Assembly: GCA_004123355.1 (NCBI GenBank)
Contig: SCHM01000006.1
Location: 1,302,001 to 1,366,000, forward strand
DNA from: Amphirosellinia nigrospora
Lineage: Eukaryota; Ascomycota; Sordariomycetes; Xylariales; Xylariaceae
DNA length: 64,000 nucleotides
Direction of reading: 5' to 3'
A program made the position numbers and the translations under genes. The notes beneath the pieces were generated by a model. That model made no database searches and was not told the DNA's origin. It worked only from the letters and a program-made list of their open reading frames with translations. Within the stretch, counting starts at the first letter, position 1. Each line of letters starts with the position of its first letter. Shown here piece after piece: positions 19,928-47,242 of the stretch.

Positions 19928-19933
<6 letters not shown>

Positions 19934-19962: not shown

Positions 19963-19964
<2 letters not shown>

Positions 19965-20274
19965 ATAATATTTTTCGCGCCCCTGCTTATTATTGCTGCT
20001 ATTTTTTTTTTTTTTTTTACTTTTTTATAACGTTAAAATTATATTATAATATAGTTAATAAATAAAAATTAATATTTTTTTATTAAGCTTAGCTTATTTA
20101 TTATAAATATATTTTATTTAAAAACTTTATTTTAAATTAATAAAATTTTTTATAATTATTTAATATTAATTTTATTTTTTTATAATATATAATTTATATT
20201 TTATAAGTTAATAAACGTTTAAAATATTTAAATTAAATATATAAAAAATTTTAGTAAATTTATTTATTAATATT

Positions 20275-20582
20275 TATAAAAATAATATTAATATTAAAGG
20301 GCAATATTAAAATAGTTAGCTTAATTAATATATATATTATTATATATTTTTAGTTTTTAGTTATAAATTAAATAAGCTATTTTTTATTAAATATTAAAAA
20401 TCTGCTTAAATAGCTATAATAGCTTAATATTCTTTTTATTTTGCGTAAAAAAGGCTTTTTTTATATACTACGTAATATTTAATATATATAAAACTATATA
20501 TTATTATACTATAGCTATTTAAATATTAATAATTATATAATTTATTATTAAGTTAATTAAATATTAAATTTATATATTAATA
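20275..20582 (-). repeat. 3' LTR of E2 (left)
   Basis: 308 bp, heavily RIP-mutated, ending TTATATATTAATA. Confidence 0.8.
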
Positions 20583-23500
20583 TTTTTTTAGCTATAAATA
20601 TTATAATATTATAAGTTTCGAAAAAAAAATAATAAAAAACTTTAAATTAATTTAATATTATAATTAAACTTTTTTTTTTATAACTAAAATATATAATTAA
20701 CTAATTAAACTAAATATAATATTTATATATATATAAGCTATATATTTTATTTTAAAACGGACTTATTTTTTATTTAGCTTAAGATTATTATTTATAAATG
20801 TTTTTATTATTATTATAATTTTAGTATAATTTTATTTATTTTAAAGTTTAAAAAAAAAACTTTTAAAATATTCTATTTTTATAAAATATATAAAATAAAA
20901 TAGTATTATTTATATTTATTTAAATATTTATTAAATAAGTAATTAAATAGCGCTATTTTTTTAAAACCTTGGATTTTTTTAAATTTAAACCTTTAAAACT
21001 TTTTTAGATTTAAAAAATAGCTAAATAATATTAGTTATTTTAGCTAAATATTATTTTTTATTATTTAATAAGCTTATTAATTATATAATAAAATAAATTA
21101 AATTAATTATATATAAAATCTATAAGTTTTAAAATATTATAAATATTAAAGCATTAAATTAACTATTTTTTAAAAAATTAATATATTAGTAATTTTTTTT
21201 TTAGTAATAATAAATAAGCTTAAGTTATTAATTATTTATTATATAAAGTTTTAAAAAAGCTTAGTTTTATTTTTTTTTGCTAATTTTTTAATTTATAAAT
21301 TAAATAAAAATAAAACTTTTAATATTTAGCTTTTTTTAATAGTTTAGTTAATTTATTAGCTAGATTATTTTTAATTTTATATATACTAGCTTAATATAAT
21401 TAGCTTATATTTTTTAATTAATATAATAATATATTATTTTTATATATTTTTTATTTTAATATAACTATATATTTAAATTAATTTATAGTTTTATATTATT
21501 ATATAAAAAAATAATAAAACTATTTAATAATATTTTAATTTATTTAAAAAGTTTTTATTTATGCTAAATTATTTATTGTTTTATTTATTATAATATATTT
21601 ACTTTTAATAAAATTTTTACTATAATTAATTATAGTTTAAAATATTATAATATTAATATATTATTTAAAATATAATATATTTTATTAATAATTTATTATT
21701 TTATAAATTTAATATTAAAATAATATTAATAGTAATAAATAAACCTATATTATTAGATTTTATATAAATAGCTTTTTTTTAGCTTATTATATTTAATTTA
21801 TATATTTAAAATACTTTTTATATATTTAGCTAATTATTTTATATTTTTAATATATTTATTAAAAAAATTTATTATAAATTTTATTTAAATAAAAATAATA
21901 AGCTTATATTAAGCTTTATAATTTAAATAAAAAAACTTAACTTATTAAATAAAAAAATATAATTAAATATTTTATTTTTAAAAATAAGTTTTTTTTTACG
22001 TTTATATAAATTATTTTTTAATATTTATAAATATAAAATATTTATATATTAAATTTAAACTAATAAAATTAAATATTTAATTATATATTATTTTTAATTA
22101 AAGTTATATTATTATTAATTTTATTTTTTATAATTTATATATTTAAAAACTAATTAGTTTAGTTTAAATTATTTGCTAAAATTTTTTATTAATTTTTATA
22201 ACGATATTTTTTAAATAGTTTAAATTAAGTTTTATAATTAAAAATTATTTATATAAAATATTATAACTTTTTTATTTTATAATTAATATATATAATATTA
22301 TTAAAAATTATAAACTTAAATTTAATTTTATTTACTATTTTTTTAGCTTTAATTTATTATTTATATTTTAATTGTTTAAAATTATATAAAACTTTATTAA
22401 TTTAATAATTTTTTTAATTAATTAGTTATATTTTTTTTATTTAATTTAAAAGTTTTAAAATATTTTTTAATATTTTAAATTATTTTATAAACATTTTTTT
22501 ATAAAAAGCTTTATTAAAATATATTATTATAAAATTAATTTAAATAATATATTATTTTTAAATAGCTATTAAAACTATTAAAATTTTTTATAACGTTATT
22601 TAAATTATAAAAATAAAAGTTTTATTATAATTAATATTTTTACGCTAAATAAACTTATAAATATAAATTTTAGCTTTATATTTATTTAGTTTATTAATTA
22701 ATAAATATTTTTTTTTAAATATTTATATAAAATTAATAAAATAGTTATAAATAGTTTTTATATATTTTATAAATTTTAAAATATATATTTAAATAAATTA
22801 TATATTTTTTTAAATATAGCTTTAAGTTATTTTTTTTTATTTTTTTTTAAATATTTTTTTAAAATAAATTTATTAAAAGTAAATATTTTTACTATAACTT
22901 TTTTAATAATTTTTATAAATAATTTATATAAAAATAACTTTTTAAAAATAAAAAATAGTTTAATTTATTTAATTTAGTTTTTTATAAGCTATAATATATA
23001 TTAATTTTTTAAGTTTTAAATTTATTTATTTTAATTTTATATTTAAATTATTCGTAAAATTATTTATATATATATTTTGTTTTTTTAGCTTAATATTATA
23101 TTTAAAATATAAATTATATTAAAATAATTTTATTTGCTTTATATAATAAATATAAACTTTTAACTAGGTTTTTTAAAGTTTTTTTTTATTACGTTTATAA
23201 TAAAAGTTAGTTTTATTATTTATTTTATAGTTAGCTATATTTTTTTAGTTTATTTTTACTATTTATAATATTATTTTCGATAATATTATAATTATAGTTT
23301 TATATTTAAATAAAATTTTTAATTTTTTAATAATATTGCTTAAGTTTATATATATTTTAAAAATAAAAAACATATAATATTTTAAAATTATAAATATTAT
23401 TTATATTTTTAATATTTTTAAAAAATTATATATATATATAATATTTTATTATTTTAATAAACTAAACTATATAATTAAATATATTTTATAATTTAAAAAT

Positions 23501-25261
23501 ATAATATTAGTTTTTTAGCTTTTAGTTTTTTAGTTAATATATATATAAATTTATTAATAAATATTATATAATATATATTTATTATTTATAAATTACTAAA
23601 GTTAAATTTATTATTTTTTTTTAATTTAAATAATTAAAATATTTTTTAGCTAAAGTTATTTTTTTACTATAAATTAATTAGTTTTATTAAAAATATATAT
23701 TATTTTAAAATTTATATATTTAAAATATAATTAATAATTTAGTTTATAAAAATAAAGCTTTAGTTTTATTTTAAATAAAATTTATCGATTTTTTAATTAT
23801 ATTATTTTAATATTAATTTATAAATAAAAAATAATAACGGTATTTTTATTTTATTATAAAATATTTTTAAATTTTTTATGCTAAATTTTTTATTATTATT
23901 TATATAAAACGTAGTATTTTTTTTAATAATTTTTATTAAATTAAAATATTTAAAATATTAATTTTTATTTATTTATTATAAATATATTTTAATAGTATTT
24001 TTTTTATTTTATCTTTCGTTTTATATGCTTTAAAATATAATATTTATTATTATTATTTATTATAAATAAAAAATATTTATATTTTTCGATTAAAATTAGT
24101 TTAATTTAATTAAAGTTTATTTAAATTATTTTTTTTAAATAATTAGTTTTTTTAATAGCTTTTTTTAAAATATATTTTTTAATTTTAGTTTAATTATAAA
24201 TAAAATAAAAAAATATTTAATTTTTTAAAGTTTAATATTAATATTTATAATATATTTAATTATTTATATTAACTTTTTAATATTAAAATAATATAACTAA
24301 TAGTATTAAAAAATTAACTTATTTTAAATTTTAAAAATTATTTTTATTTTTTTTTTAATAATAATTTAAATAATAATTCTTTTAATATTTTAATTTTATT
24401 TATTATATTTAGCGCGAATTTTTATAGCTTTTTTAAAGTTAATATATTATATAAAGCTTTTTTTTTTTATATATTTATAAAAAAAACTATACTATTAAAT
24501 ATTAAAATTTATAATAGCTATTTATAGCTATTTTTATAATATTTATTTAAATAATTTTTTATTTATATAATTATTTTTTTAAAAATATATTTAATAAAAA
24601 TAATAAAATAAATAAAATATATTTTATATTTATATTATATTTATTTTTATTAAAAGTTTTAAAGTTTTTATAATAGTATTAATTTTTTTATTTATATAAA
24701 TTTATTTTTATATAAACTATATATTTTTTTTTTTTTAGTTAAATTTATTATTAATTTTTTTTTAAAATTAGTTTATTATTATATATTTTTATATTTAACT
24801 TTATATTAAATAAAATATAACGTTTATAAGTTAAATATAATAATTTTTTAAAATATAAATATATTTAAATATTATTATTTTTTTATATAATAGTTTTAAT
24901 ATTTAGTTTGCTATTATTAATAATTTTAATATTTAATATATTTTTTTAATTTAAATTGTTTAAAATTGCTATTAAAAGCAAAAATATAAAAATAATATAA
25001 TTAAAAATATTATTATTATAGTTTTTTATTTAATAACTAGCTTAATAATTAATTTTAAATTATTTTTAAATTTATTATTATTAAAGCTAGCTTTTGCTTA
25101 ATAAAAAAGTCCGTTATTTTTCGATTAATAAACGGGCTTATTATAGTATATAAATCCGCGGTTGTTTTTTTTTTTATAAAAAATCTATAGTAATTTTTCC
25201 GTAAATAAATCCGCTATTATTTTTTTTAACTTAATATAATTATCGAAACTAAAGCTATTTT

Positions 25262-25370
25262 TAAATTAAGATTTTTTAAATTAAAGTTTTTTAAGTTAAA
25301 GTTTTTTAAATTAAAATTTTTTAAGTTAAAGTTTTTTAAATTAAAATTTTTTAAGTTAAGGTTTTTTAAA
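25262..25370. repeat. Short tandem repeat in E2 (TTTTTTAAATTAAAG units)
   Basis: About seven 15-bp units alternating AAATTAAA and AAGTTAAA, longer than the array at the same place in E1. Confidence 0.75.
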
Positions 25371-27175
25371 CTATAATAATTTTTGGCCTAAAATTATTTA
25401 TATAACGTAGTTTTATTTATAATTAATAATATTATAGTTATTTAAAATAAAAAAAAAAACTAAATATAATAAAAAAAAAATAATATTTTATAATTATAAA
25501 ATTTATTAAACTTTATAAAATATTATATTTATATAAATAAAATAACTAAAGTTATTTTTAAAACTTACGGTAATTTTTAACTTTTATAAGTTTGCTATAA
25601 ATATTATAAGTTTTTAATTGTTTAAAATTATAATTCTAGTTATTATATTACTTTATTAAAATAATTTTTAGTAATATAACTTTATTAATTATATTTAAAA
25701 TATTTAAGCTTTTTTTTTTATTATAATTTTTTTTTAAAATTAAATTTAAAGTTTAATTTATAATTTTTGCTTTTATTATTATTTTTGCTAAACTTTATTT
25801 TTATTAATAATATTATTATTAGATTTTTTTTTTTATAATTTTTAATTTAAGTTTTTTTTTATACGGTTTTTAAAATTATTATTAAATTTATTAATTAAAT
25901 TTTAAATATAATATTTTTTATATTTTATAACTTTAATAGTAATATTATATTAAGCTATTGTTTTATTTTTTATAGCTATAAATATTATAATTTATTAGTT
26001 TATACTTATTTTTTTTTTTAGTTTTTTATATTATTTTACGTTTTTAAAAAATTTAAATATAAAAAATATTAGATTTTTTTTATTATATTATAATTAATAA
26101 TATTATTTTATATATTTTTTTAGTATATTTAGCTTATTATATTATAAGTTTTACTAAAGATTTTTAATATATATAACTTTTTTTTAATATTTTTAACTAA
26201 GTTTAAAAAAGCTAGTTTTAATATATTAATAATTATTTATATTAATATTATTTTTATACGAACTAATAAAATTTTTAAAATTATATTTAATAGTTTTTAT
26301 AATAAAATATAAATTATATTAATATATTAATTAATTTTAGGTTTTTTTAATTAGTTTTTTTATTAAGTTTTAGTTTAAATTTATATTATTTTAGCTTAAT
26401 TTTATTTATAAATAAAATTTTTCCGAGTTTTTTTATAATAAATAATATTTATATTTAATATAAATATTATTAGATTTTTTTAAATTTAATAATAATAATA
26501 ATAAATTTAATAAATTTAAGTTTAAATTTAAAATAAAAGTAATTTTTTTTTTTTTTTTTGCTTTAAACTTTTTTTTAGTAAAATTACGCTTTAGTTTTTT
26601 TTTTTTAAAATCGATCGATTTAAATTTTTTAAAAAATTTATTTATTTTTTTTACTACTTTATTTAAAAAGTTTAATATTTTTTAATTATTTTTTTAATAA
26701 TATTATTTATTATTAAATATTTCGAATATATTTTTATTAGCTAAATTAGTTTAATTAATTAAATCGATTAAAATTAACTTTTTATTTAATTTGTTTAATT
26801 TTTTTAAATTATTAATAATTTCGTTAAATTTATTTTTTATAAGCTTTATTTTATATTTATAATTAATAAATTATTTTTCGATTTTTTTTTTAAAATTTTA
26901 GTAATTTTATTATATTTTTTTTTTTTTAATATAGTTTTTTTATATATTTTAAAATTATATATTATTATTTTTAATTATTATTAGGCGTTAATTTATTAAT
27001 TAGTTATTTTATCGAATAAATATTAATATTTTATTATTTTAATTTTTAAATTTGCGATAATTTTTTTAATTTTTTTTTAGTTAATATTTATTAATTTAAA
27101 TTAATAATTAAAAATAGCTAAAATACGCTAATTAAACGTTTTAAAAATTAATTAATTATAAAATACATTAGCTAT

Positions 27176-27490
27176 TATAAAAATAATATTAATATTAAAA
27201 ATAATATTAAATTAATTAGTTTAATTAATATATTTTATTATATATATTTTTAGTTTTTAGTTATAAATTAAATAAACTATTTTTTTATTAAATATTAGAA
27301 AATTTATTTAAGCAGCTATAGCAGCTTAATATTTTTTTTATTCCGCGTAAAAAAAGCTTTTTCCACGCATGCCGCGCAATATCCAGCGTACACACAAAAC
27401 TACGTGCCACTATGCTATATAGCCACCCAGGCACCAGTAATTACGTAATCCATCACTAGGCCAATTAAATACTAGATCTATATGCTAACA
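27176..27490 (-). repeat. 5' LTR of E2 (right), half of it barely mutated
   Basis: 315 bp. From about 27345 to 27490 normal composition returns: CCACGCATGCCGCGCAATAT, CTACGTGCCACTATGCTATA and AGCCACCCAGGCACCAGTAA are intact, while its other half and the three sister LTRs are RIP-mutated. This patch gives the best view of the ancestral LTR start on the minus strand, TGTTAGCATATAGATCTAGT. Confidence 0.85.
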
Positions 27491-30400
27491 ATATTTAATT
27501 TATTAATAAATATATTATTTTAAACGTTTTTTTGCTATATTTTTATTTATTTATATATTTTATATATTTATATATTTTAATATAGTATTAATTTTATTAT
27601 TTTATTTATAATAAGTTTAATTGTTTAAATATTATTTAAAAGATTTTTTATTTTTATTTAAAACGAAATTTAAATTTTTAAACAGTTTTTAAATACTATA
27701 ATTTTTTTTTATTATTTTAAATATATTAAGTTTAGCTTTAGTTATAAATATAAAAATAATAGTTTATTTTATTATTTTTATATAATTATATTATTAATAA
27801 TAATATAATATATTTATATAAAAATCTTTTTATTTTAATATTATTAATAAATAAAGCATTTTTTATAATTATTAAAGCTTACATACGATCGTTTTATATT
27901 TTATATATAATTTTTAAAAATTAAATATTATATATAAATTAAATTTAATTTATTGCTTTTAAATATTTTTCGTTTAAATTAATAAAATATTTTAATAGTT
28001 AAATAGCTATATATATTATATTTAATTATAATATAATAATTATATATAAAATCGATTTAATTTGTTTTTAATATGTTTTAATTTATATTTTTATTATTAT
28101 ATTTAAGTTTTTAATAAGCTTTTTTATTAATAATAAAATTATAAACGTTTAGTTATTATTATTTAAATTATAATATTTTATTATTTTTTAATATATTAAT
28201 TATAAATTAAAATAATAAATTTAGCTTTTTAGTTACGAATAATTTATATTTTAAAAAACTATGCTATATTATTTTATTTTTTAAGTTTGTATATTTTTTT
28301 AATATTTTTTAAATATTTTAGCTTATTTAACGTATTTTTTCGAAAAAATATTAAAAAATTATTTATATAAAGTATTAAAAATATTATTTTATTTTTCGTA
28401 TAAAATAAATATAGTTTTTTTAATAAAATATATATTATTTATTATTAATATTTTTACGAAATTTTTATATTAAAATAAAAAAAATTTTATAGTTTATATA
28501 ATACTTTATTAAATAAGCTTATTATATTATTTTAAAAAAACTTTTTAATAATTTAATTATTATTAAAGTTTTTTTTTTTTATAATATTTAAAAATACTTT
28601 AATAATATCGAACTATTTAATTTTTATATTAAAACGTATAATTATTATTATTATTAAATAAAATATTTTAGTAGTAATATTATTATATAAATTAATTAAA
28701 AAGAAATATTTTTTTATAAATTTTTTTAAATTATTAGTTATATTTTATAAGTTTTTAAGAATTTTTTTTATTTTATTTATATATAAATATTTATTTTAAA
28801 AACAATAATATATTTATAGTTTTATTTTTAAAATAAGCTTTAATATTTTTTTTTTTATAGCTATTTATATTTTTGTAAATATTTTATTTAAATTATTTTT
28901 TTAGTTAATATTTTATAAAATTTTTCTAGCTTTTAAAAAATAGTTTAAAAAAATTAGTTTTATAAAAACGTTTTTTTTTTAAAATTTATAAAAATCCGTT
29001 TTATTTTTATTAATTTATTATAGCTATAAAAACTATATATAATATTTTATATTTTTAGTTTTTTTAATAAATAGTTTTTTATTAATTAAATATAAAAGTT
29101 TTTAAAAATTTAACTAGTTTAAATTTATAAAAAAAATTATTTTATTTTTATATATACGATTATTATAAATATAATATTTTATTACGTTTTTATAAATTTT
29201 CGGCTTTTTTAAAGTTTTTACTTTTAATTTTCTAGCTTAAATATAAAACTAAAAAATAAATTATACGGATATATTTTTATTTAACTAGTTTAAAATTATT
29301 TTAATTTAAATAATATTTTTATATATTTTATTTAATTTTATATTTTATTATTATATATTTTTAAATAAAAGTTTAAAAATTATTATTATTTTTTTATTAT
29401 TATTAAAGCTTATTTTTATATTAGTTTATTATTTTTTAAATTTAGGCGTTTTTTAAAAATTATAAGTTTATATAGTTAACTTTTATATATTATATTTTTA
29501 TTTTTTTTAATATATTAAATATTTTTATTTTAATTTTTATTTTTTATTAAATAATAAAAAGCTTATTAAATAAATTAAAAGCTTTTTTTTTTATTTAAAA
29601 CGTTAATATTTAATTTATATCCTATTTTTTTTGCTTATTTTTATATATTAATAATTTATTTAGATTTTTTAAAAAAGTTTAATAATTTTAATTTTATTAA
29701 TTTATTAATAGCTAATTTTAATCGTAAGTTTTTTATATTTTTTATAATAAAATAGTTTTTATTAAATTTTATATTTATATAATAATTATTTATTTTAACT
29801 AAAAAATTTATATTTAATATAAATTATTAGCTTTATAGCTTATTAAATATTTAATATAAATTTACGTTTTAATTTTATAAATTTATTAATTTTTATTAAT
29901 AAACTTAAGTTTTTTTATTAAATACGCTTAATATTTATATATATAAATTTTATTTAGTTTAGTTTTAAATTATTTATTAATATTTATATTTTTTTAATTA
30001 ATATTATTTAAAATATTATATAAATTATATATAAAATATTTTATAAAATATATAAAATTATAAACTTTTAATAAGCTTATATTATATAGTATATTATTAT
30101 TTAAGCGATTTTTAACTATAAAAAAACTAAAAAGCTTATATTTAAAATATTTTAAAAGTTTTTTTAATAATTTTTTTTTTAGCTTTTTTTTTTTTGCTTA
30201 AAAGCTTATTATTATAAAGTAAAAATAATTTAAAGTTAATTTTTATTTTTAGTTTAAAATTAATAATAAGTTTTTTATTTATTATAATTATTATTTTTTA
30301 TTATTATTATATATATTATAATCGGTAATTAATATTTTTTATACTTTATTTTTAAACTTTTAAATTTTTTTAAATATTTTTAGTAAGCTTTTTTTATTAA

Positions 30401-32741
30401 TAAAAATTTAAATTATTTATTATATTTATTTTTAAGCTAAATAGCTAATTTAATTTATTATATATTTTAAAATAATTAAAAAATTTTAATAAATTTTATA
30501 AAAAAAACGCGCTATATATTTTTTAAAACTTTTTAAATATAATTTAATATATTATTATAAATATATAATATTTATATTTTTTTATAAAATTTTATTTATT
30601 TTTATATTTTTATTTTAGCTATAAAAGTTTTAAAAATTTAAGCTTAAATATTTTATTTTTAAATATTATAGCTATTTAAAATTTTATTTTAGTTTTAATA
30701 AGTTTTTTAATAATATATAAACGTTTATTAAATATTTTATAAATAGCTTATATAAAATTAATTTATATATATTTATAAAAATATTTTATAAAAATAAAAA
30801 AAATTAATTATAAACGTTTTAATTAAATAAGATTTAATAAAATTATATTAAATAAAACTAGGTTATATTTTTAAACTAATTAAATAATTAAATTATTTTT
30901 TTATAATTTTATATTTAAACATATAATTAAATTTTAAATATTATATCTAGTTTTTATAAATATATTTTAAAAATAATATTTATATAAAACTTTTTTATAA
31001 ATAATTATATTATTTAAAATTAAATTTTTTTTTTATTTTTATTTTTAGTTAAAAAAATCCGTTTAATAATTTTTATTTTTTTTAAAAATAAAAAACTAAA
31101 CGTTTTTTATATTTATTATTTTATTATTTTTTATTTTAATAAATAACCTAAATTTAAATAAGTTTTTATTATTAATTATATAAATCGTTTTATAATTATT
31201 AATAAACGTATTATTTAATAAAACATATAATATTTATAAATATATTAAAAAAATATTTAAAGTTTAACTTAATATAATAAAATTAATAATAATATATATT
31301 ATATTATTTAGCTATTTTATTTTATTTTAATTAAGTTATTTTTGTTTTATTAAAACGTTTTAACTATTTTTAGTAATTTATTTATATATATTGTTAAACC
31401 GGGTATATATTTATCGTTTTTTAATATTTTCGACTTATTTTAATAAAAAAATCCTAAATAACTAATAATTAGTTTTATTAATTATAATATATTATAAAAT
31501 TTTATAGCTATTTAATAATTATAAATATATTTTATTTATTAATTTTTATAAACATAATAATATTTTTTAATATTTTATTTATATATTTAGCTTAATAAAA
31601 ACAACTATTATTTCGGTTAATATTATTTAATGTTTTATTTTTATAAATTAATAATATAAACGCTAGCTTTTTTTTAGCTTTAAATATATTATTATAAATA
31701 ATAGTAATAAAAATCTTATTTTAGTTTTTAAGCGATATAATCGGAGTTTTAAACGTTTTAGCTTTAATAAGTTTAATATATTAATTAATTATTTATAAAA
31801 ATACTAGCTTAATATTAATTACGTTAAAAAAGTTTTAATAAAAAACATATTAAATATATCGGAAATTTTTATTACTTTCGTTCGTTAATATATAATTTCT
31901 TAATTTTTAATTTATTTTATAATATTAATATTATTATTTATAGCTTTTTTAGTACTATTTTATAATTTTATTAAAAATTAATATATATAATTAATTTAAT
32001 AAAAATAAAATTATTCGTAGCGTATTAATTAAATTTTAAAACGTTAAATATTTTTTTATATTAATTTTTATCATATTATTTTAAATAATAAAAAAATTAT
32101 TTTATATTTAATTAATATAATTACGTTATATTTAATTATTATAAATAATAAATATTTTAATATATTTAAAATATTTATTTATTAATTAATAAATTATTTT
32201 TCGATTTTATTTTTATAAGCTTAATTAATTTATAAATAAATAGTTTTTTTAATTAGTTTATATTATTTACTAGCTTATTTTATTTAATTAAATTTTATAA
32301 ATAAATTTAACGAACGTTTTATTTTAAGTTTTTAATAATTTTTTTTTTATAAAAGCTTTAATAATTATTTTAAAATAAAGCTTATTTTAAAAACATTAAA
32401 GTTTATTACGCTTTAAATGCTTTATTTTTATATATATTTAAAGCTTAATATTATATTAGCTAATTTTATTATTTTTTAAAAACTACGTTTTTTAAAATAG
32501 TTAATAAGCTTTTTAATATAATAATAATTAAACTTACTAGTAAAATTAATATATATATATATATATAATTAAAAAAAGCTTATAAAATAAGCTTAAAATA
32601 TTTAGTTTAATATTATATATACTACGTTATATAACTAGCTAAAGTTAAAAAAATTTAAAAAAAATAAAATCGTATTATTAGCTTTAAAAAAATTACCGTA
32701 TTTTAAAAACACTAGTTCTATAAACAAACTAAGCTTATAAT

Positions 32742-33089
32742 TATAAAATACTAGCGTACTTTTATAGCTTAATAAAAAAATTAAACTAATATATATATAA
32801 ATAAACATATTAAAGCAGTTTTAAAAAATTTAATAAATTAAATTTAACTATAAAATTTAGTTTATAGTTTTATATTTATATATATATATATATATAATAT
32901 AATTAACCCGTTTAAAACTAATAAAATTTATTAAGCCCGTTTATAAGCTTAAGTATATTTAAGCTTATTAATATATTTTATATACTTATTTTTTATTTAA
33001 ATAAGCTAGCTAAACTAGCGTGCTTTAGTTTTATTAAACAAGCTATTAAAACTAGCGTGCTTAAATTAAAATAAAGCTATTTTATTACA
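32742..33089 (-). repeat. Right LTR of E3
   Basis: 348 bp, ending GCTATTTTATTACA with a canonical CA terminus. It has two AAACTAGCGTGCTT repeats about 45 bp apart that are decayed in the left copy. Confidence 0.8.
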
Positions 33090-33094
33090 ATATA

Positions 33095-35718
33095 ATTAGC
33101 TAAACCTTTATAAAAACGTAAAACAGCTTTATTAGCTAAAAGTTATTAAAAAAATAATAATAAATAATAACCCGGGTTATTATAAACATTATATATAAAC
33201 TATATATTATAACTTTATATTAGTTAAAATAGTTTTTTTTAATATTATTTAAAACATTATTTGTTTTAAAACTACGCTTTATTATTATAACTTAAATTAT
33301 ATTTTATATTTATAAATTAATAAATATTTCGAATAAAGTTTTAACGTTATAGTTTTTTATACTAAACTAAATTTTAAATAAAAACTAGGCGAATTTATAC
33401 TTTTTACGTAAATATAACTAGTTATATATTTAAATTAATATTTATTATAAACTAAAACTAAATATAGCTTTTTTAAATAAAAAATAGCGTATTTTATATA
33501 AACTATAAAAAAGCTTTATATAATAATTTATTTAAATAAATACTATATAATAGTTTTAATAAATTATTTAGTTATAAAAAATATTATTTATTAAACTTTA
33601 TTAAATATTTTTATTATTAATAAAGCAAATAACTAGCTTATTAATTTATCCGTTTATTTATTATAATATAGTTTTTAAATGTTTTATTTATTAAAACGTT
33701 TTAATTATATTTTAAATATGCTAAATTAATTTATAATAATATAAAATACTATAAACTTAAAAAATAAATTAAAATAATTATAAAAATTATTATATTAAAC
33801 TATAAAATATAATAAAACATACTATAAAAATAATAATAAATAACGCGTTTAAATATAATTTCGAGCTAAAATATAAACAAATTTTTATTATAAAAAATCT
33901 TAAATAAACTTTACTAAAATTAATTTCGCGAATTATATAATAATAAAACGCTATTATTTTTTTTAAAGCTAAATATTTATTTTTTATTATAAACGGTTTA
34001 ATTTATAATAAATATAAAAAAATCAAACAATTTTTATTTTATATACGATACGCGATAAATATTATTATATATATTAAAAAGTATTATTTTAAACTTAATT
34101 ATATAAAAAACTTTAAAACTATATTTAATTTATAAAAAATTATAATACGTTAAAAAATACTACGAATATTATTTAAAATATAACGTTAATTATAATAATA
34201 AATAAAAACCGGTAAATAGCTTACGTTTAATTAAACTTAAAAATATATTATTAATATAAATAATTATAATTAATTTTATTTTATTATTTTTTTATTAAAT
34301 TATAAAATATTTTATAACAACTAAATAGTTTTAATATATATTATATAATAATAATTTTTATTATACGTTTAAATAAACGTTTATAATCCTTAGTAATATA
34401 AAGTATACTATTAAAAACTAAGCAATAATATTAATTAAATAATTATTTTTAAATAATTAAAATATTTTTAAAAAAATTATTTTTAATTATAATCGTAAAT
34501 TATTTTTAATTTTTAAAAAAATATATAAAAGCATTAAATATTAAATTATTAATAACTATTACGTATTATTTATAAAAAAATAGTTTATTTTAAAAAAAAA
34601 AACTAAATAATTAAAATTATAATATATTTTTATAATTATATATATTTTAAGTCGAACTAGCTTAATATAGTTTTTATTTTATAATAAAACTTTAATTTTA
34701 TGTTTTTATAAGCTATATAATTTATTTTATATAAATAATTATTTAAATTTAAGCTTTTTAGCTTTTTTAATATATTTACGGCTAAATAAATATATAATTT
34801 CGAAAATATAAAATCTTTATATAATTATTTATAACAAAATATTAAATTAACTATAAATTTTATTATTATTATAATAAAAAAATATTTTAATAATAAATAC
34901 TAAATATTAAAATTTAAACTAAATAATAAAGTTTTTTATTTATATAATAGCTACTATTTACTTAATAAGCTTTTTAGAAAATATTTATAATAATAAGCTA
35001 AACTTTAAATTATTAAGCGTAAAATTAATAATTTAGCTTATAAATTAAACTTTTTAAATATTATTATATATATTTTATTATTTTATTACGTAGTTATAAC
35101 TATATAAAATAATAAAAACTTTTTTAAACAAACAATATTATTATTAAAGCTTATTAAAGCTAACTAATATTCCGATAATAATAAAAATAATATTTATAAA
35201 ATTAAAATTATATTTAAATATTATTTTAACTAAAAAAAAAACAACTTCGATTATTTAATTAAATAAAAAAATAAAATTATAAATATAACTATTAATATTT
35301 ACCGTATTATTTTAATATTTATAAAACTTATTAATAAATATTAGTTTAAATATAGTTTTTATTTTATACTACTAAAAAAAAAAAGTTTTTTATAAAGCTA
35401 TTATTTAAACTTATACTTAAAGCAAAAAAAACAAAAAGTAAGCATTTTTATAATAACCACATAAAATAATTATTAAAGCTTTAGCATTAAATTTTATTAA
35501 TATCTTTATTATTAACGCCTTAGTATTTAATATATTTATAAATAAGTTTTTACTTTTTAATAAAGCTTTAAATTATAATAACTTATAAATAAAGTAGTAA
35601 AAAAAATAAAATAAACAACAATATTATTTAATATTATATAAAAAAATTATAATTATAATATAGCTTAGCTAAATTAATTTATTAAAGTTAGCAAAGATTT
35701 TTTTATGTTTTAGTATTT
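33095..35718. other. Last interior segment of element A, no readable gene
   Basis: A-rich on the plus strand, with scattered CG and AGCT. No ORF or RNA gene. It is the distal interior of element A after E3 is removed. Confidence 0.65.
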
Positions 35719-35922
35719 TAATAAAGCCTTTAAAAGGTTTATATTGCTAGTAGTTTTTTTATATAAAACGTAAAGAAAAACTATTTAGCAATACTTATAT
35801 TTAAATAAATAGCTAGCATACTACTAGTTAAAAAATCTATTATTAAATCTATTATATAAATTTAATAATAAATTCTTTTTTTTAATTAAGCTTTTATTTT
35901 ATAACTTATAATATTCTTTTTA
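35719..35922 (+). repeat. Right LTR of element A
   Basis: 204 bp, TAATAAAGCCTTTAAAAGG to ATATTCTTTTTA, followed by TSD TTATT. Both hairpins of the left LTR are present (TATTGCTAGTAG...CTATTTAGCAATA, and AAATCTATTATTAAAT with its inverted partner). Confidence 0.82.
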
Positions 35923-35927
35923 TTATT

Positions 35928-36375
35928 AAAAATTAAATATTATTATAAAATTTATATATATATTAAATAAAATAAAATATTTAATTAAATTTTTATATTA
36001 TAATTAAATTATTTTAATTATTTATATAATTTTATTAAATAATTATTTAATATATTTATATAATATATTATATTTAAAATTAAAATTATAAATTTTATAT
36101 TAATAAAAATATATAAATTAATAAAAATATAATATTTTAATTATAATTTTATAATTTTTTTATAATTAATATTTTATTTTATTATTTTTATATTTTTTTA
36201 AATTTTTATATTAATTAATAATAAAATTTTAAATAAATAATATATATAAATATTTATTTAATAAATTTTAAATTAAATAATATATATATAATTATATATA
36301 TATATTTAAATATATATTTAATTATAATTATATAATTAAAATTAAAGTTATTATATATAAAATTTTATTTTATTT
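35928..36375. other. AT-rich DNA between element A and the palindrome array
   Basis: No gene or repeat landmark. It was contiguous with 4674 before element A inserted. Confidence 0.65.
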
Positions 36376-39300
36376 ATTAATCGATTAATATTTAATTATT
36401 ATTCGATTATTAGTTTAAATTTAATTTTTTTTTTTAAATAATAATTTTAATTTTTTACGATTATTTTTTAGCTTTATAACCCTAAGTTTTTTTTATTAAA
36501 GTTTTAATTATATTAATAATATATGTTTTTAAATACTAAGTATATTAGCTAAAATTATATTTTTATAAAAATTATTACGTATAATTAATTAATAATCGAA
36601 CAATAATTTATTAATAATTAATTATATTTTTTATATCGTTTTTTTTTCAATTAAGCTATTATAAAAAAAATAAACTTAATCGAACTAAAAATACTATATT
36701 AAAATAAGCTTTAAATATTTAATAATTATATAAAATTAAAAAGAAATTAATATTATTAAATAATAGCTAAAAACTAAATATTTAAAAAAATAAAATTTTT
36801 ATTTTTTTTAGTATTTTTTATTTCGAATAATTAATTAATTAATAATTAATTAATAATCGATTATTAATCGATTATATATAATAAAATAAATTATTATTTT
36901 TTATTATAAATTTTTTAATTCGATTTATAAATAAAACAAAGCGATATAAATATAATATATTATATTTATAATAAATTGCTACTAATATAAAATTTTTATT
37001 ATTAAGTTTTTAATTATTAATCGATTAATAATTAAATAAAAATCGATTAAATAGTTAATTTATTTATATATTTTATTAAATATTAATATTTATTATTATA
37101 TAAATAGCTTATTAATATTAAACTTTAATTAGATTTATAGTTTTAAATATTTTATTTTAATTTTTAAAAACAATTTTAAAGCAATTTAAATTAAAGCTAT
37201 AATAAATAGTTTTATATTATTTATATATAGCTTAGTTTTAAATTTATTAAAAACTATTTATAATAGGTTAATAATTAATTATTAATCGATTATTAATCGA
37301 TTTTATATTATATATTTATTTAATATTAATAAAGTTATAAATATTTTAATTTTAATTATATATAAAAAAGCTTTATATATTAATTGAAAAAAAATTAAAA
37401 TTTTAAACTTAAATATTATTAATTAAACATTAATCGATTAATAATTAATTATATATATATATTTTACTAGTTTTTTAATTTTACGTTAAAAATATATTAT
37501 ATAATATTAAATAATATATTTTACGTGCTATAATTAAACCCGATATTAAAAATTAACTTTTTATAAATAATTTTAAAGCTTTATATTCGATTAATAATTT
37601 ATTAATAATTAATTAATAATTAATTATATTATTAATAATAATTTTTAATTTTAATTAATTATAAATTTAATAAATTTATTTTTAATATTAATAAATATTT
37701 TTATAAAATAATATAATTTTATTTTTTTTTAAAAATTCGAAATATTATTTCAAATATAAAAACCTATATTTTAACTATTTTAAAGTTAATAATAACTTTA
37801 ATAAACATAATATTTAAATATTAATTAATAATTAATCGATTATTAATTAATTATTAATAAATTATTTATTATAAAATATAAATTTATTAAATATTATTTA
37901 GATTATTTTTAGTTATTTAATTTATTAAATATTTATAATTTATATTAATCGTATAAATATATAATAATCGAAATAGCTTAAATTATTTATTATAAAAACA
38001 AATAATTATAAAATTATTTAAATTTTAATAAACTTTATAAATATATTAATAATTAATTAATAATTAATTAAAAATCGATTAATAATCGATTATTTATTTT
38101 AGTTTATTATTTTATTATTTAATATTTATTATATTGCTATAATATTAAACTAGCTAAAAATACAAAATATAATATTTTCGAATTAAATATTAAATAATAT
38201 TAGCGTTATTTAATAAAAAATAAAAGCTTAAAAATTTATTATATTTAGTTTTTTAATTAAGCTTATATAATTAAATTTTCGAAAAAAAATAGCTATATTT
38301 AATTAATAATTAAATATTAATTAAATAAAAATCGATTAAATATAAATTATTATATATTATAAGCTTAAATTATTTATATACGTTATTAGTTTTTAGATTT
38401 TTTTTTTAAGCTTTTAATTAGTTTATTTAAAAGTAATAAAAATAAATATATTCGCTATAACTAATTAATAATATATATAAATTTAATTTTAAATTAATTA
38501 ATATATAAATATTTTATTTTATTTAATATTATAATTAAATAATTTTACTAAAGTTTTATAAATAAATATACGTTATAATTAATTAATAATTAAATAATAA
38601 TTAAATAATAATTAAATAATATTTATAATATATATTTTATACTTAATATTTTAAACTATATAATAAAAAAACTAAACGTATATTTGTTATTTTAATTAAT
38701 ATATTTTATAATAAATCGATTATATAATTATATTAATAAAAAACTTAAATATAAAAATACTTTTAATTATTTAATCGATTAATATATAGTTATATATTAA
38801 TATAACTAATAAAATATCGTTTTATAATAAAAATTATTTAAATAATTAATTAATAATTAATTATTAATTCATAATTAATTAATATTTATTTATTTTAAGT
38901 TTTTTTTAATTTATAGTTTATAAGTTTTATTTTAAAGCTTATATAGTTTTTTTTTGTTATAATATTTATTTGCTTATAATTATTTAATTTTATAAAAATT
39001 AATTAATAATTAAATAATAATTAAATAATAATAAAATTAATTAAATATTAATTAAATATAAATTAAATAATAATAAAATAAAAATTAATTAATAATTAAT
39101 TATTAATCGATTATTTAAAATATATATATATTAACGCTTTTATTTATAACTATTGTTTATTTAAGTTTTTATTTTAGTTTTTATAATTTTTAATCGATTT
39201 TAAATTAATTTAATAACTTTAATATATTTTATATTTTTATATTTAAAATATATATTTATATATTTTAATTTTTATATAATTAATTATTATTTAATTATAT

Positions 39301-39674
39301 TTAAAATTATTTAAAAAAAACTATAATTTAACGTTATAATATAATTAATAATTTATAAAATTATATTTATTTTTTATTAATATTCGATTAATAATCGATT
39401 AATAATTAATTATTATTTATTAAATTAAAAAATTATATTATATTTTTTTTTGTATTTTTTTTATTAATAATATAGCAAACTTTTATTTTATTTATAATTA
39501 AATAATTTAAAAAACTAAATATTTAAATAAACGTTTTTATTAATAAAAAACGATTAGTTTAACGATTAAACTTTAATAAAATTAAAGTTAAATTTAAATT
39601 ATTAATTTTTAATAGTTTTTTAAAAATATTTAGTTTTTATAATAATCGATTAATAATTAATTAATAATCGAATA
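36376..39674. repeat. Interspersed palindromic-block array (TTAATCGATTAATAATTAA type)
   Basis: Sixteen blocks of about 25-115 bp are built from ATTAATCG, TTAATAAT and AATTAATT words, many with the palindrome TTAATCGATTAA. They lie at 36376-36412, 36581-36625, 36827-36874, 37011-37060, 37268-37303, 37416-37452, 37587-37627, 37819-37860, 38045-38093, 38299-38340, 38577-38622, 38764-38787, 38841-38884, 38998-39114, 39378-39415 and 39641-39674. Centre-to-centre spacing is mostly 150-280 bp. The spacers show no evident similarity to each other and hold no ORF. Two further blocks beyond E4 (46553-46614) show the array continued before E4 inserted. Function unknown. Confidence 0.65.
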
Positions 39675-39818
39675 TTAAAAATTTATTTTTTTTTTTTTAA
39701 TAAGTTATAAAGTTTATAAATAAACGAATTTTATAATATTTTAATTAATTTGTAATTAATTAGCATTATTTTTTAAAAATATTAAATAATTTTATTAAAA
39801 TTAAAAATATATATTTAA

Positions 39819-40083
39819 AGTTATAAATTTATAAGCTTTAATAGCTATGCCCCACTATTAGCTATAACACCCGTAATTTTTACTTATAATAACTATATAA
39901 CTATTATTCGTAATAAATATAATATAGTAAATAAAAGCAAATATTAGTAATAAATATAGCTATTTTACAAGTATTTAAATAGCTATTTATAATATAAACT
40001 TAAACTTTTTTTTTTTTTTTTTATAAATTTTTATATAATATTATATATTAAAGTTTTATTTTTTTAAATATATAAGTATAATT
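39819..40083 (+). repeat. 5' LTR of E4
   Basis: 265 bp, starts AGTTATAAATTTATAAGC and contains GCTATGCCCCACTATTAGC and a T run near 40006-40022. The shared sequence that continues after it (TTATAAATTATTTAAAA) also follows the 5' LTR of E5, so it is internal. Confidence 0.82.
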
Positions 40084-43000
40084 ATTTATAAATTATTTAA
40101 AACATTATAAAGTATTAAAACTATTTTTATAATATTTTTAATTAAACTAAATAATTAATTTAACCTAAAAATATTAAAATATTTTTTAAAAAAAAACTAA
40201 AATAATAAGCGCATATAGCTATATATATTAAAGTTTTTATTAATTTTAAACTTATTTATTTTAAATATTTAAAATAATAAACTTTTTATAATAAAACTTT
40301 AATAAATAATAAAAAAATATATTTATTTTAGTTTTTTAAATTATATAAAAACTATATAATAAGCTATAAAAGCTAACTATTTTTAATTAATTTAATATAA
40401 TAATTTTATAATATTATTAATAATTATATATTTAAAAAATAAAAATTTAATATAAATATTATTAGCTTTAATTAAATAGTTTAATATTTAATTAATAATT
40501 ATATAAAACTATAAATAAAAATATTAAGCTTAATTTTTATTTTAAATTAATAATATATTATAATAAAATAATTTAGCTTAGCTTTAATAAAATATAAATT
40601 AAACTAATATAAATAATATATATAAAAATTTTATTATTATTTTTAAAAATAAAAATATATGTTTTTTAATAATATTTATTATTTTTTATTATTAATTTAT
40701 ATATATTTATTAAAAAATTAAATAAATAAAATAAAGTTTATTTAATTAAATAAAAAATAAAATAAAATTATTATTTTATAATAAAATATATATTATATTA
40801 ATATATTATTAATATTTTTTAATTTATAATTAAAAATAACTTTAATTAATAATAAATTAACTAATAAATTATTAATTAATTATTAAATAAATTATAAAAA
40901 ATAATTAAATAATATAATTATATTTAAAATAATTTAAATATTTCGAACTAATAAATAATTAATTTATTAAATTATTAAAATAATTTTTATTTTATTAAAT
41001 AATAAAAAATAATTAATATATAATTAAAATATTAATATTTATTTTTATAATAATATAATTAAATATAAACTTAAATTTAAAATATAAATTTAAACTTATA
41101 AAATTGTTTTAAATTTAACGTTAATTAGTTTTATAATAATATAGCTAAAATAATTAATATTAAAATTTATATTAAAAGCATATAGTTAATAATTTTTTTT
41201 TTATTTTTTTTTAATTATTTTAACGTATTATTAATTTAAAAACTATTTTAAAATATTTCGAAAAAATTTATATAACGTTAATTATAATAAAAAAGCTAAA
41301 ATTAATTTTAATTATTTAGTTTTAATTAATATATATTAGCTAAATTTTTTAAATTTTAAATTATTTTTATTTATTTAATTAATAAAACTAAATTTAATAA
41401 AACTAAATAAAATAAAAAATTTAAAAATAAATTATTTTTTAATTAATAATTAAAACTATATTAAAATATTTAAAAAAAATATTAATTTTAATATTTATAT
41501 AAAAATTATTTTTAAATAATTTATTATTTAATAATAATTAATTATAAATAAAATAAAACTTATAAAAAAAAATATAAAAATTTATTATTATAATTTTTAT
41601 TTTTTTATTTTTATTTTTATTCGAACAATTTTTATTTATTTTTAAAACTAAATAATAATAATAATAATAATAATTTTATTTAATTATTTAAACTTAACGT
41701 TAATAAAATATAATAATAATTTTAATAATAAATATTTTAATTATTATTAATAAAAATATATTTTAAAAAAATATTTTTTAAAAAATTAAACTTTAATAAA
41801 AAAAAGCTTAAGTTATTATTATTCTAGCTATATATAATATATTAAATATTAAGCTAGCTAATATATAAAAAATAACCTTATAATAAATATAAAAAAAAAA
41901 AATAATTTTAAAAAAAATATTTTTAAAAATATTATTAATTATAAAATAAATCTATAAAAAAGTATTTAAATAAAAAGCTTTTATTATATATTTATATTTT
42001 ATATAATAATAAACTTTTTTTAATTATAAATAATTTTTTTAAAAATATAAAATAAATATATATAAAATATAAACTAATAATTCGTAAAAAAAATTATTAA
42101 ACTATTTAATTTATTATTATTATAAACTTTTTTGCTAAAAAAATTATAAAATATAATAATAAAAGCAAAAAAAATATTAATTAAATTTTTTATTATTATT
42201 AAAAATATATAAAAAGATTTTAAAAATAAATTTATAACTATTATTAATTTAATTTATAATATTTTAAATAAGCTATAATTTAAATATTATAATATTTTAT
42301 TAAATTATTAATAAAACTATTTAATATTTTTATTTTAATTATTTTTTAATTATAATATAAAATATTATTTAATAATAAATAAAATAAATATATAGCTATA
42401 ATATTTAGTTTATTAATTTAATACTAATTAATAAAATTATAACTTTAAAATTAAAAAAATATAATATTAATAATAATAATAAAATAAAATAATATTTAAA
42501 TAATATAAAACTAAAAATATTTATTTTAAAATATAATAATTTAATATAAAAAATTTTAATAAAATAAAATAAATAATATTTAATCAGTTTTTATTAAAAT
42601 TATTTTTAAAAAATATAAGCTATATTTTTTTATAAAAAATATAATTTCGATTTTTATTTAAAAATTTAATAAAAAAAACTTTTATTATATAAATAATAAT
42701 ATTAATTATATAAAAAAAACTAATAATTAAAATATTAGCTTAAATATAATTATTTTTAATATAATAATAAAAAAAACAAAGTAAAAAACGTTTATATTAT
42801 TAATATTAATAAAGTTAATAAAATAATCGGAAAATTAAAAAAAAAAAAAAAATAACTTTTTAAAAAAAAAAATAAAAAATTAAAATAAAAAAACGTAAAA
42901 AAAATACTTAAAAAATACTAAAATTTAATATACGTTTTTAATTAAATAAACTTTAATATATTATTATTATATTATTTATAAATAAACTAAAAAATAAAAT

Positions 43001-44789
43001 TTTTAAAAATAAATTTAAAACTAATTTAAATTATAGTTTTTTATATAAAATATTATTAAATAAATTAAAAGCTATATAAAATTTTTAATTAAAAACTTAT
43101 ATAAAAGTTTTATTAAATTTAATAATATTTTATATAATATATTTATTTTATTTATAAAAAAACAAATAATAAGTTTTATTTTTATATAATATTATAAACT
43201 AAATAAAATTATAAAAAAAAACTAATATTTATTTTTTTTATTAAAAAAACTTTAGTTATATTATTAAAACGAAAATTTTTATTTAATTTTATATATAATA
43301 AATATTTAATTATATTTATATATTATTTAAAAATAAAATTATATAATTTTTTATAAAATATAATATATATTAATTATAAATTATTATTTAATTTTATTAA
43401 TAAACTTTTAACGTTTAATAATATATTAATAATATATTATTTAATTTTTAAACGATTTTTATAATATATATATTAATAATGTTATTATTTATTTAAAAAT
43501 AATAAAAAAATATATTATTTATATATATTATATATTAAAATAATTAATTTAAGCTAGATTATAAATTAATTTAAAAAAATTTAAATTTTATATTATTAAA
43601 ACTAAGTTTTTAATTATATTATTAATATTAAAAAAATTTAAATAAATTTTATTAAAATTAATATTATATTAAAATAAAAAACTTTTACGTTAGTTAAAAA
43701 TATATAATTTCTTTTAAAATTTTATAATTTTTATAATTTTATTAATATTTAAAGTTATATTATTATATTTTTAAACTAATATATATAAAAAAATATATTT
43801 TTATATAAATTAAAAAATATAAAAAATTATTTTATTAATTTAAAAAAGTTTTAATATTTTTTTTTATTAAAATATTTTAATTATAATTTATTAATAAAAA
43901 TTAAAACTAATTTTTTTAATAATATTAGCTTTAATATATATTATAATTATATAATAAAATTTAATATTTTATAATATATTTTTTAAAAATATTTTATAAT
44001 ATTAAATTAAACTATAATATTATAATAAAAATTATTAATAATTATATTATATTTTAAAAATAAAAACTTAAACTAATTAATAATTATAATAAACTTTTTT
44101 AATATTTATTAATAATTAAATATTAAAAACTTTTAGTAAAAAATAATATTTTAATTTAAAATAAACTAAATAAATTAATTTTTTTTTAAAATATAATTTT
44201 TTAATATTATATTATTTTAAAAAAAATAATATATTAATTAATATTTTATTATAAAAATAAAAAAACCTAATAATATAAAAGCTAAAAAAAATATAATATT
44301 ATTTTATAATATTTTAATTAATAAATAATATATATAACTAATTTTTATATAAATAAAATTATATTAAATAAGTTTTATCGAAATATATAACGAATTAAAT
44401 ATTTTTATAAAATTATAATTAATTAAATAAATTTTTAAAAAAAAACTATAAAAATATAAATATAAAATTTATTATTAATAAAAAAATAATAAACTAAAAA
44501 ACTTATAAAAACTAAAAAAATAAATTAATTATATTTTTATAAATATTTAGTTATTTTTAATTTTTTATATTTAAAATAATTTTATTAAAAAATATATTAT
44601 TAAAATATTTATTATATATTTAATAAAAATAAAATATATAAATTTATTATTAAATATTATTAATAGTTTAAACTAAATAAAAATTATAATTATTATATAA
44701 TAAACTATATAAAATATAAATTTATTTAAAATATTTAAAAATAAAACTTTTAATAAATTTATATTTTTTTTAATATTTAAATATATATA

Positions 44790-45266
44790 NNNNNNNNNNN
44801 NNNNNNNNNNNNNNNNNNNNNNNNNNNNNNNNNNNNNNNNNNNNNNNNNNNNNNNNNNNNNNNNNNNNNNNNNNNNNNNNNNNNNNNNNNNNNNNNNNNN
44901 NNNNNNNNNNNNNNNNNNNNNNNNNNNNNNNNNNNNNNNNNNNNNNNNNNNNNNNNNNNNNNNNNNNNNNNNNNNNNNNNNNNNNNNNNNNNNNNNNNNN
45001 NNNNNNNNNNNNNNNNNNNNNNNNNNNNNNNNNNNNNNNNNNNNNNNNNNNNNNNNNNNNNNNNNNNNNNNNNNNNNNNNNNNNNNNNNNNNNNNNNNNN
45101 NNNNNNNNNNNNNNNNNNNNNNNNNNNNNNNNNNNNNNNNNNNNNNNNNNNNNNNNNNNNNNNNNNNNNNNNNNNNNNNNNNNNNNNNNNNNNNNNNNNN
45201 NNNNNNNNNNNNNNNNNNNNNNNNNNNNNNNNNNNNNNNNNNNNNNNNNNNNNNNNNNNNNNNNNN
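44790..45266. other. Assembly gap (477 N)
   Basis: Unknown bases inside E4. E5 without its own insertions is about 6.61 kb against 6.71 kb for E4, so the gap size is roughly right. Confidence 1.
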
Positions 45267-46240
45267 TTTTTTAATATTATTTAATTTTAATTAAAAAAAT
45301 CGGACTATAAATAAAAAGCTATAAAAGCTTTTTAAAAAAAAAAAACAATTTAAACAAATATATAAAAAAAAATAAAAAAAATAATATAGTTTATTAAATT
45401 AGCTAAAAAAAACTTATAATATATTTAAAAACGTATAATTAATTAAATTAATAAAAATTAATATAAACTTAATTTTAATATAAAAAATTATATATTAATT
45501 TTAAAAAAAAAATAGTTTTAAAAAATAAACTATTTATTAAATAAACTAAATTTTTTTTTAATATAATAAATGTTTAAAATATATAAAAAAAATAAAAACA
45601 TTTTTATATTAAACGTTTTTTTAATTTAAAAAATATTAAATCGTTATTATATAAATCGACTATAAAAATATTTTAATAATTTATTATTAAATTAAAAAGC
45701 AAAAAACTTAAAAAAAAAATAATAAAACTTAAAAATAAAAAAAAGTTTACTATTAAAAAAATATAAATATTTTAACTTTATTATTAAAAATTATAATACT
45801 AAATAAATTAAAAAAATTAAAACTTTAATAATATATAATATTTAGCAAAAAATTTTAAAAATAATATAAAAGCATTAAAAAACTTTTATAATATAAACTT
45901 TAATTTAGCTAAACTTTTAATAAAACTATAAATATAGCTAAAAATAGCGCAAAAAAACAAACTTAATAAGCTATATTTAGCTAATAATAAAGCTATAATA
46001 TAAAAAAAAAAAAATAACGCAAAAAAAAAACGCGTAAATAAAAAAAATATATAAATATTATATATATTTAAATATTATATTAAGCAAAAAAAACCTTAAA
46101 TAACGTATAAAAAAACTAGTATAATAATTTAATAGTATAAAAGCTTTACGAAAAATTATATTAATAAAAACCCGAAACAATTTTTTTTTTCGCTAGAAAA
46201 CAGTTATAACTTTAACCTTAGTTAAATTATTCTTTTTTTT

Positions 46241-46251
46241 AAGGGGGGAAT
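46241..46251 (+). other. Polypurine tract of E4
   Basis: AAGGGGGGAAT directly before the 3' LTR, the expected place for plus-strand priming. The equivalent place in E5 is all A/T (53974-53991). Confidence 0.8.
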
Positions 46252-46530
46252 AGTTATAGATCTACAAGCTTTAGTAGCTATGCCCCACTACTAGCTATAG
46301 CACTTATAATTTTTACTCGTAATAAATATATAACTACTATTTACAATAAATATAATATAATGAATAAAGGCAAGCATTAATAGTAAATATAGCTGCCCCG
46401 CAAATATTTAAGCAGTTATTTATAACGTAAACTTAAACTTTTTTTTTTTTTTTTTTTTTTTTTTATAGATTTTATATACAATATATTATATATATTAAAG
46501 CTTTATTTTTCGAGTATATAAAGCATAACT
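46252..46530 (+). repeat. 3' LTR of E4
   Basis: 279 bp, AGTTATAGATCTACAAGC to AAAGCATAACT. It keeps more G/C than the 5' LTR (GCTATGCCCCACTACTAGC, GCTGCCCCGC) and has a long T run at about 46439-46464. Confidence 0.83.
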
Positions 46531-46552
46531 TTTAATATTTTATAATAATATA

Positions 46553-46614
46553 TTTAATCGATTATTAATCGATTAAATATTTAATAATATATAATTAATT
46601 ATTAATCGATTAAT
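46553..46614. repeat. Two palindromic blocks, continuation of the 36.4-39.7 kb array
   Basis: TTTAATCGATTATTAATCGA and ATTAATTATTAATCGATTAA lie immediately right of E4 and its TSD, showing that E4 inserted into the array. Confidence 0.7.
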
Positions 46615-47242
46615 ATATATTTTTTAGGAAAAAATAATTAAAAAAAGAACTTTTAATTATTTATTTGCAGAATTAAAAAATATAAGTTATTTCGACCTTT
46701 GCAATATTAAATTAAGCCAACTAGTACTAAGGATCTAGCGCTGCAGATCGGGCCCACAAATCCCTCCAAATCTGGTCACTGGTCATATAGATCGCAGGGG
46801 TATAGGTCATCCTGTCAGGCCCCTCATCACGATAACGTTCAAGGATTTTCAATCTGCATTCCTCAACACAACCGTGCGCCAATGAAATACTATGAAAGGA
46901 TCTTCATCCTAGCAGTCTTATTCCTACGCGTCCATCTGCATTTGTTTACGTCTTACCTAATACACTGTCGCCGTGCCGACCCTTCCGGCGTATTCCCCGT
47001 GTTGATATGACCCGACTAGGGTTGACTGGGGTAATAGAATGCGGGGAGTTAAGCGCGACTTTTCGGTGCCTAGTTTCTTCCACCGCCTCGAAAAACGTCC
47101 ATAGTACACGTAATCACAGACCCTGACTCTAATAATGCCTGTAGGTGGTTCTTATAAAGAGATGCCACATCTCGACAGAGATACGCGCCGGTCTAAGACT
47201 TCTAGTTTGCACGCTGTAGTCTGAATATTTGCTGTCAATATA
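46615..47242 (+). promoter_or_regulatory. AT/GC boundary and upstream region of the esterase gene
   Basis: Composition changes to normal at about 46690-46740. No gene is recognised here. Two matches to the CreA consensus SYGGRG, CTGGGG (47026-47031) and GCGGGG (47041-47046), lie ~200 bp before the start codon. A TATA-like CTTATAAAG lies at 47151-47159. CreA sites are short and common, so carbon-catabolite control is only a suggestion. Confidence 0.35.

Follow-up and report, generated by a model that had tools for sequence, protein, structure and literature searches.

Palindromic blocks in AT-rich DNA of Amphirosellinia nigrospora probably mark the introns of an old DNA transposon changed by RIP-type mutation

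Transposon relics mutated by RIP are known from filamentous ascomycetes. RIP depends on repeats, a sexual cycle and the RIP enzymes. MITEs are miniature non-autonomous DNA transposons. The closest published analogue of the locus described here is the transposon VANDAL21 of Arabidopsis with its anti-silencing VANC21, which is also covered in PMC10398659. As reported in PMC5735166, VANC21 binds a 9-base motif (YAGTATTAY) that is dense in the non-coding regions of VANDAL21 and rare in other transposable elements. The same report places tandem repeats bearing this motif, variable in number, in introns of both VANC21 and VANB21, as well as upstream of VANA21. Introners are a further source of short introns with shared sequence. 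The introner families reported in PMC9860276 have median lengths from 30 nt, and those of ascomycetes are given there as having neither target-site duplications nor terminal inverted repeats. Among the titles listed in a literature search, none described a fungal transposon whose introns bear arrays of a motif.

The locus resembles each of these systems in part. As in VANDAL21, a short motif is concentrated in non-coding DNA of a single transposon family, including introns in the one copy for which a gene was modeled by hand. It differs in its fungal host with RIP-type mutation, its 11-bp palindromic unit and its 8-bp duplication. A VANC-like protein and its binding would be putative here, and membership of the Arabidopsis family is not claimed. 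Compact members of the family are like MITEs in their inverted-repeat ends, their high identity and, in most, 8-bp duplications, but differ in an AT-rich core that holds palindromic blocks at intervals. In the large element, the left arm has fallen to a few percent GC through directional C>T/G>A change, as is typical of RIP relics. Unlike in such relics, intron motifs persist as regular landmarks and the dinucleotide preference is weak. The short introns with shared sequence recall the introners of fungi (PMC9860276), but they occur in one transposon family rather than in many host genes, and only an 11-bp unit is shared.

The window is the whole stretch of 64,000 nucleotides that was analyzed (C8:1302001-1366000), within a 48.1-Mb genome of 11 contigs. 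Its main block array occupies 36376..39672, with no strand assigned. The array motif is an 11-bp unit, ATTRHTAATCG, with the palindromic core TAATCGATTA. Counts in this 3.3-kb stretch were compared with 200 dinucleotide shuffles of it. ATCGAT occurs 18 times (shuffle mean 1.14, maximum 5), exact TAATCGATTA 12 times (mean 0.05, maximum 1) and TAATCGATTA with at most one mismatch 21 times (mean 0.97, maximum 4). The array proposed in the earlier note is therefore real, and its density is far beyond that of the shuffles. The note had counted sixteen blocks every ~150-280 bp; this slightly overstates the regularity, since the 21 sites fall into 14 clusters 87-476 bp apart. Within several clusters two sites lie at a distance of 11 bp. 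Over the whole window, the 12-mer with two mismatches is found 73 times against 46.3 expected, a number reached by none of 100 shuffles; this excess is modest because AT-only look-alikes dominate.

The spacers had been called unrelated, and they are. Pairwise alignment of 12 of the 13 inter-cluster intervals (those of at least 60 bases; one shorter was left out) gave a mean score excess over shuffles of 0.85 (sd 4.66, largest 13.2) in 66 pairs, with no long-period repeat and thus no ordinary satellite. Six-frame translation of the array met 130-156 stops per 1,107-1,108 codons, and no usable protein emerged. In other AT-rich DNA of the window, TAATCGATTA sites with at most one mismatch number four in 1-36375 and one in 54000-64000; there are none in 39673-46530. 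The two additional blocks that had been noted beyond the main array were found at 46554..46613 (no strand assigned). They are separated from it by a decayed LTR retroelement (about 39.82-46.53 kb), so the interval 36376-46614 given earlier holds the array but also takes in an LTR element inserted in it.

Analysis of the surrounding DNA revealed that the array lies inside a single DNA-transposon insertion of 52,365 bp (C8:1296461-1348825). Its left end is 5.5 kb before the window and its right end is at window 46825. The in-window part, 1..46825 with no strand assigned, is defined by matched ends, target duplications and composition. The insertion is flanked on both sides by the identical 8 bases ATCACGAT, a perfect target duplication; one copy is at 46826..46833 (no strand assigned) and its partner just left of C8:1296461, outside the window. 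The ends of the family, read inward, are GAGGGGCCTGACAGGATGACC and GAGTAGTTGCACGAGATGACC, identical at 13 of 21 positions. The terminal inverted repeat GAGGGGCCTGACAGGATGACC is at 46805..46825 on the minus strand. It belongs to a right transposon end of near-normal GC on the same strand (46705..46825, C8:1348707-1348825), recognized by its match to the compact-copy ends (86% identity over 118 query bases). Genome searches allowing up to three mismatches, with 0 control hits, found GAGGGGCCTGACAGGATGACC seven times, at all five elements of the family and two other places. GAGTAGTTGCACGAGATGACC was found nine times, at all five elements, C9:80150, C9:235785 and two other places. Both ends are thus present at 5/5 elements. 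The shared flanks and ends place the AT-rich DNA of the window, as far as 46.7 kb, within one insertion, which was later filled with other elements and became AT-rich through mutation.

The decayed LTR retroelement is on the plus strand at 39819..46535, with approximate boundaries drawn from the alignment of its LTRs (about 39819-40100 and 46253-46535). A purine tract precedes the second LTR, and no target duplication of this element was found. Within it, 477 consecutive N at 44790-45266 mark either an assembly gap or a withheld stretch. When the 52-kb element, with roughly 40 kb between its two parts of the array, was searched against itself with GC-weighted words, one direct and two inverted repeat pairs were obtained. 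A 76-bp tandem repeat (three copies) at window 1699-1928 has an inverted counterpart ~2.5 kb leftward at C8:1301187-1301284, and the two are perhaps the arms of another nested element. GC-rich short tandem motifs, AATTAATACGGGGGCATGAAG and TCATACCCCCGTATCAATTCT, stand at 6681-7274 amid a stretch of 14-17% GC. To the right of the transposon end is a GC-normal island. It contains a tannase/feruloyl esterase gene at 47243-48886 (PF07519, E 1.3e-82 for 47843-48883), followed at 49757-51503 by one with ankyrin repeats (PF12796, E 4e-18 for 49757-50581).

Relatives of the array are dispersed in the genome. A genome-wide search for block clusters with the double unit TTAATCGATTATTAATCGATTA (at most one mismatch) gave 41 listed matches, every one of them in the C8 element or at one of four C5 sites; no match came from the reversed control. 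With the 15-mer ATTGMTAATCGATTA, all three exact matches are in the transposon family. At one mismatch 37 of 43 are, the other six being scattered singles, although the reversed control at this stringency gives 82 hits, more than the pattern itself. The four C5 places are compact relatives. Two are contiguous, of 948 and 1,231 bp, with the array between ends of normal GC, and the remaining two are split by kilobase-scale inserts. The 1,231-bp element contains a foreign, GC-rich insert of 223 bp (copy 2, L010:3768-3990, C5:4957267-4957489) with TGACACAG/CTGTGTCA-like inverted ends, apparently another small transposon. In the one compact copy examined, no ORF of at least 40 codons lies wholly within it. 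A further C9 locus, L044:986-5800 (C9:235785-240600), has a family left-end fragment and, 4.8 kb on, a compact-type fragment, the two flanking other inserted sequence.

The 8-bp target duplication is perfect at two of the five elements, C8 and compact copy 1 (CACGGCCA), where it cannot be extended. It matches at 7/8 bases in copies 3 and 4, and none was found for copy 2. Copies 1 and 2 sit in GC-normal DNA on both sides. These observations bear on the proposal that the array is centromere- or origin-like, or a satellite. Repeated palindromes within a long AT-rich tract would fit such an array. However, transposon ends and target duplications bound this one, its spacers do not align with one another, and its relatives are dispersed, two of them in DNA of ordinary composition. 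We therefore consider a centromere, origin or satellite array extremely improbable and do not retain the centromere- or origin-like option of the earlier note.

The blocks of the compact copies are nearly invariant. Among copies 1-3, one of 138 block columns varies compared to 42 of 498 spacer columns (Fisher p 0.0004), a block count that omits copy 4 and uses block columns set on the consensus, which favors low counts. The right half of copy 4 differs from the other copies at 4/70 block columns and at 24-32 of 285-289 spacer columns, and its left half at 2-3/46 and at 10-12 of 155-175, respectively. Only 3/231 end columns vary among copies 1-3, and these near-identical ends suggest that the compact copies moved fairly recently. 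Copy 1 contains two neighboring units ~137 bp apart that are identical at 91/105 positions, a local tandem duplication. To see whether the compact core is a shortened RIP copy of the C9 gene described below or of the window array, it was compared with both; GC-weighted scores stayed inside the null. A purine/pyrimidine code, which is unaffected by RIP-type mutation, gave 172.5 and 164.0 for the two strands against the window array (null maxima 151 and 148); near-equal scores on both strands are expected from shared palindromes. In this code the scores of the core against the C9 locus and against the C8 left arm were at the null maxima.

One relative on C9 (L043, C9:80150) is the unmutated left end of the same transposon, followed by a gene. 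In a genome-wide DNA search it recovered its own locus, the C8 left end at 85% identity and fragments at C9:235785-235857. The gene model starts at an ATG at 1360 and contains seven GT-AG introns, each 52-74 bases long. Through exons 1-5 the reading frame stays open for 131 codons, against 4 and 12 stops in the other two frames. Across exons 6-8 the sole in-frame stop is the terminal one, and the other frames have 2 and 6. Exons have 50.4% GC and introns 30.6%, and GC by codon position is 0.606/0.402/0.496 in exons 1-5. A right transposon end was not found for this copy, and the frame slips once, at intron 5, indicating that the copy is broken. Pieces of the gene product matched no Pfam family. 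The first piece had no credible relative of solved structure (best E 0.14), and the joined pieces had no relative in IMG/VR. One low-scoring protein hit, at C5:6928689 (E 0.08), was dropped as a relative because by eye it resembles a Zn-cluster transcription-factor gene.

The introns of this gene carry the array motif. ATTRHTAATCG is present in 7/7 modeled introns, several of which repeat it at 11-bp steps, and all nine ATCGAT between the ATG and the stop are intronic. The introns were drawn by eye with knowledge of the blocks, and their placement is therefore not independent of them. Three more ATCGAT (2570, 2642, 2653) follow the modeled stop. Two alternative explanations of the shared unit have to be weighed here.

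The first is that the introns are introners, copies of one intron-generating element spread in transposon genes and sharing the motif by descent. A unit common to every modeled intron is consistent with this, as are the short median lengths reported for introner families and the missing duplications and inverted repeats of ascomycete ones (PMC9860276). Outside the unit, however, the seven introns look unrelated by eye and differ in length. The matches to the 15-mer give no motif family in host genes, and near-identical introns in many unrelated genes were not seen. The blocks also persist in compact copies that have no gene. Introners are therefore a rather unlikely source of the array. The second explanation invokes the splicing environment only, a branch-point region such as TGCTAAT having become fixed in a gene of many introns. 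The unit stands 9-34 bases upstream of the modeled 3' splice sites and includes a string that presumably resembles fungal branch sites. This string is uncommon in the rest of the genome, a full palindrome in 11-bp steps exceeds what a branch site needs, and the blocks are conserved in the compact copies, where there is no gene to splice. We judge a pure splicing signal to be about as improbable as introners.

Comparison of the C9 gene with the C8 element revealed the effect of mutation. Between L043 1360-2383 and the C8 left arm (L014:1962 onward) there are 337 C>T/G>A changes, 5 in the reverse direction and 53 transversions. Of the exon G/C sites, 249/313 are changed. In the 209 bases ahead of the gene the numbers are 16, 7 and 10, respectively. 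Changes affected 93/110 CA, 75/94 CT, 100/135 CG and 69/89 CC dinucleotides. The relationship is also evident in the purine/pyrimidine code, with a score of 844.5 against a null maximum of 251 in 20 resamplings. At the level of sequence comparison, the left arm is the same gene after RIP-type mutation, in which exons have turned into spacers and introns into blocks. In this arm, at L014:3520-3790, a block-bearing unit of ~72 bp is repeated ~4 times, by eye a local expansion of one block.

The same comparison speaks to the idea that the blocks are only a residue of RIP, stretches whose TCGA escaped mutation and that share no origin. In the left arm ATCGAT was kept at 4/9 sites and other CG at 10/58 (p 0.083). 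Better survival of ATCGAT may sharpen blocks without selection, and part of their persistence may reflect sequence context. However, the C9 introns, which are unmutated, contain the repeated motif too, and exons mutate into spacers without making blocks. A residue without common origin is very unlikely. For the window part 36376-39672, no unmutated relative was found in the 48-Mb genome, so we infer the intron/exon arrangement there from the same element: the 14 clusters would be introns, and the spacers exons, of the same or a second transposon gene.

The element has the anatomy of a DNA transposon of the cut-and-paste type, with defined ends and inverted repeats common to copies at separate sites (5/5 elements). 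The hAT group has 8-bp duplications and the terminal consensus YARNG. An 8-bp duplication is present in 4/5 copies when one mismatch is allowed, but the ends begin with GAG, and we did not file the element as hAT. Mutator-like elements, including VANDAL, duplicate about 9 bp, which does not fit the 8-bp duplication here. Profile searches for MULE and hAT domains found PF10551 (8 matches) and PF05699 (5 matches) elsewhere in the genome and none inside the C8 element, where RIP may hide a transposase domain. The earlier statement that the locus matches no known element stands in that no named family was found, but not as regards its anatomy.

Taken together, the array is probably a RIP-mutated old DNA transposon whose motif-bearing short introns remain as blocks. 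Its gene or genes would have been interrupted by many short introns, each with one to three 11-bp units. RIP-type mutation would have reduced the exons to featureless A+T, in which the introns stay visible, and later transposons, the LTR element among them, would have inserted into it. Of the origins suggested in the earlier note, a decayed repeat-rich gene comes nearest, in that the left arm is an intron-rich gene with blocks in its introns. For the blocks themselves, the suggestion of a RIP-eroded protein-binding array may be right as well. Three findings favor a function of the motif at the DNA level: it is clustered in the family, present in every modeled intron and almost unchanged in compact copies 1-3. 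Our leading, though tentative, interpretation is that the motif could be a cis-acting signal, with many closely spaced sites to which a dimeric protein encoded by the transposon or the host would bind. Such dispersed sites would be kept where they leave coding undisturbed, in introns because exons cannot carry them, and might be needed for mobility or chromatin control.

A more specific version, a fungal counterpart of VANDAL/VANC, is drawn by analogy and is doubtful. Its intronic tandem 11-bp palindromic sites would be recognized by the transposon's own putative protein, for which the product of the left-arm gene, which contains Cys and His, is a possible candidate. This protein could shield copies from silencing or RIP, or alternatively assemble the transposition complex over the full length of the element. 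Compact derivatives would retain the sites and be served by this protein too.

A RIP-mutated transposon is a familiar kind of ruin; the unusual design is the repeated palindromic motifs in its introns. An unexplained array thereby becomes a sequence of events, from transposon to RIP to nested insertion, and introns can outlast exons as visible landmarks in RIP-mutated DNA. The fairly recent movement suggested by the ends of the compact copies would make the binding of the motif testable. If a protein does bind it, this family would be a non-plant case of a transposon with dispersed intronic recognition sites.
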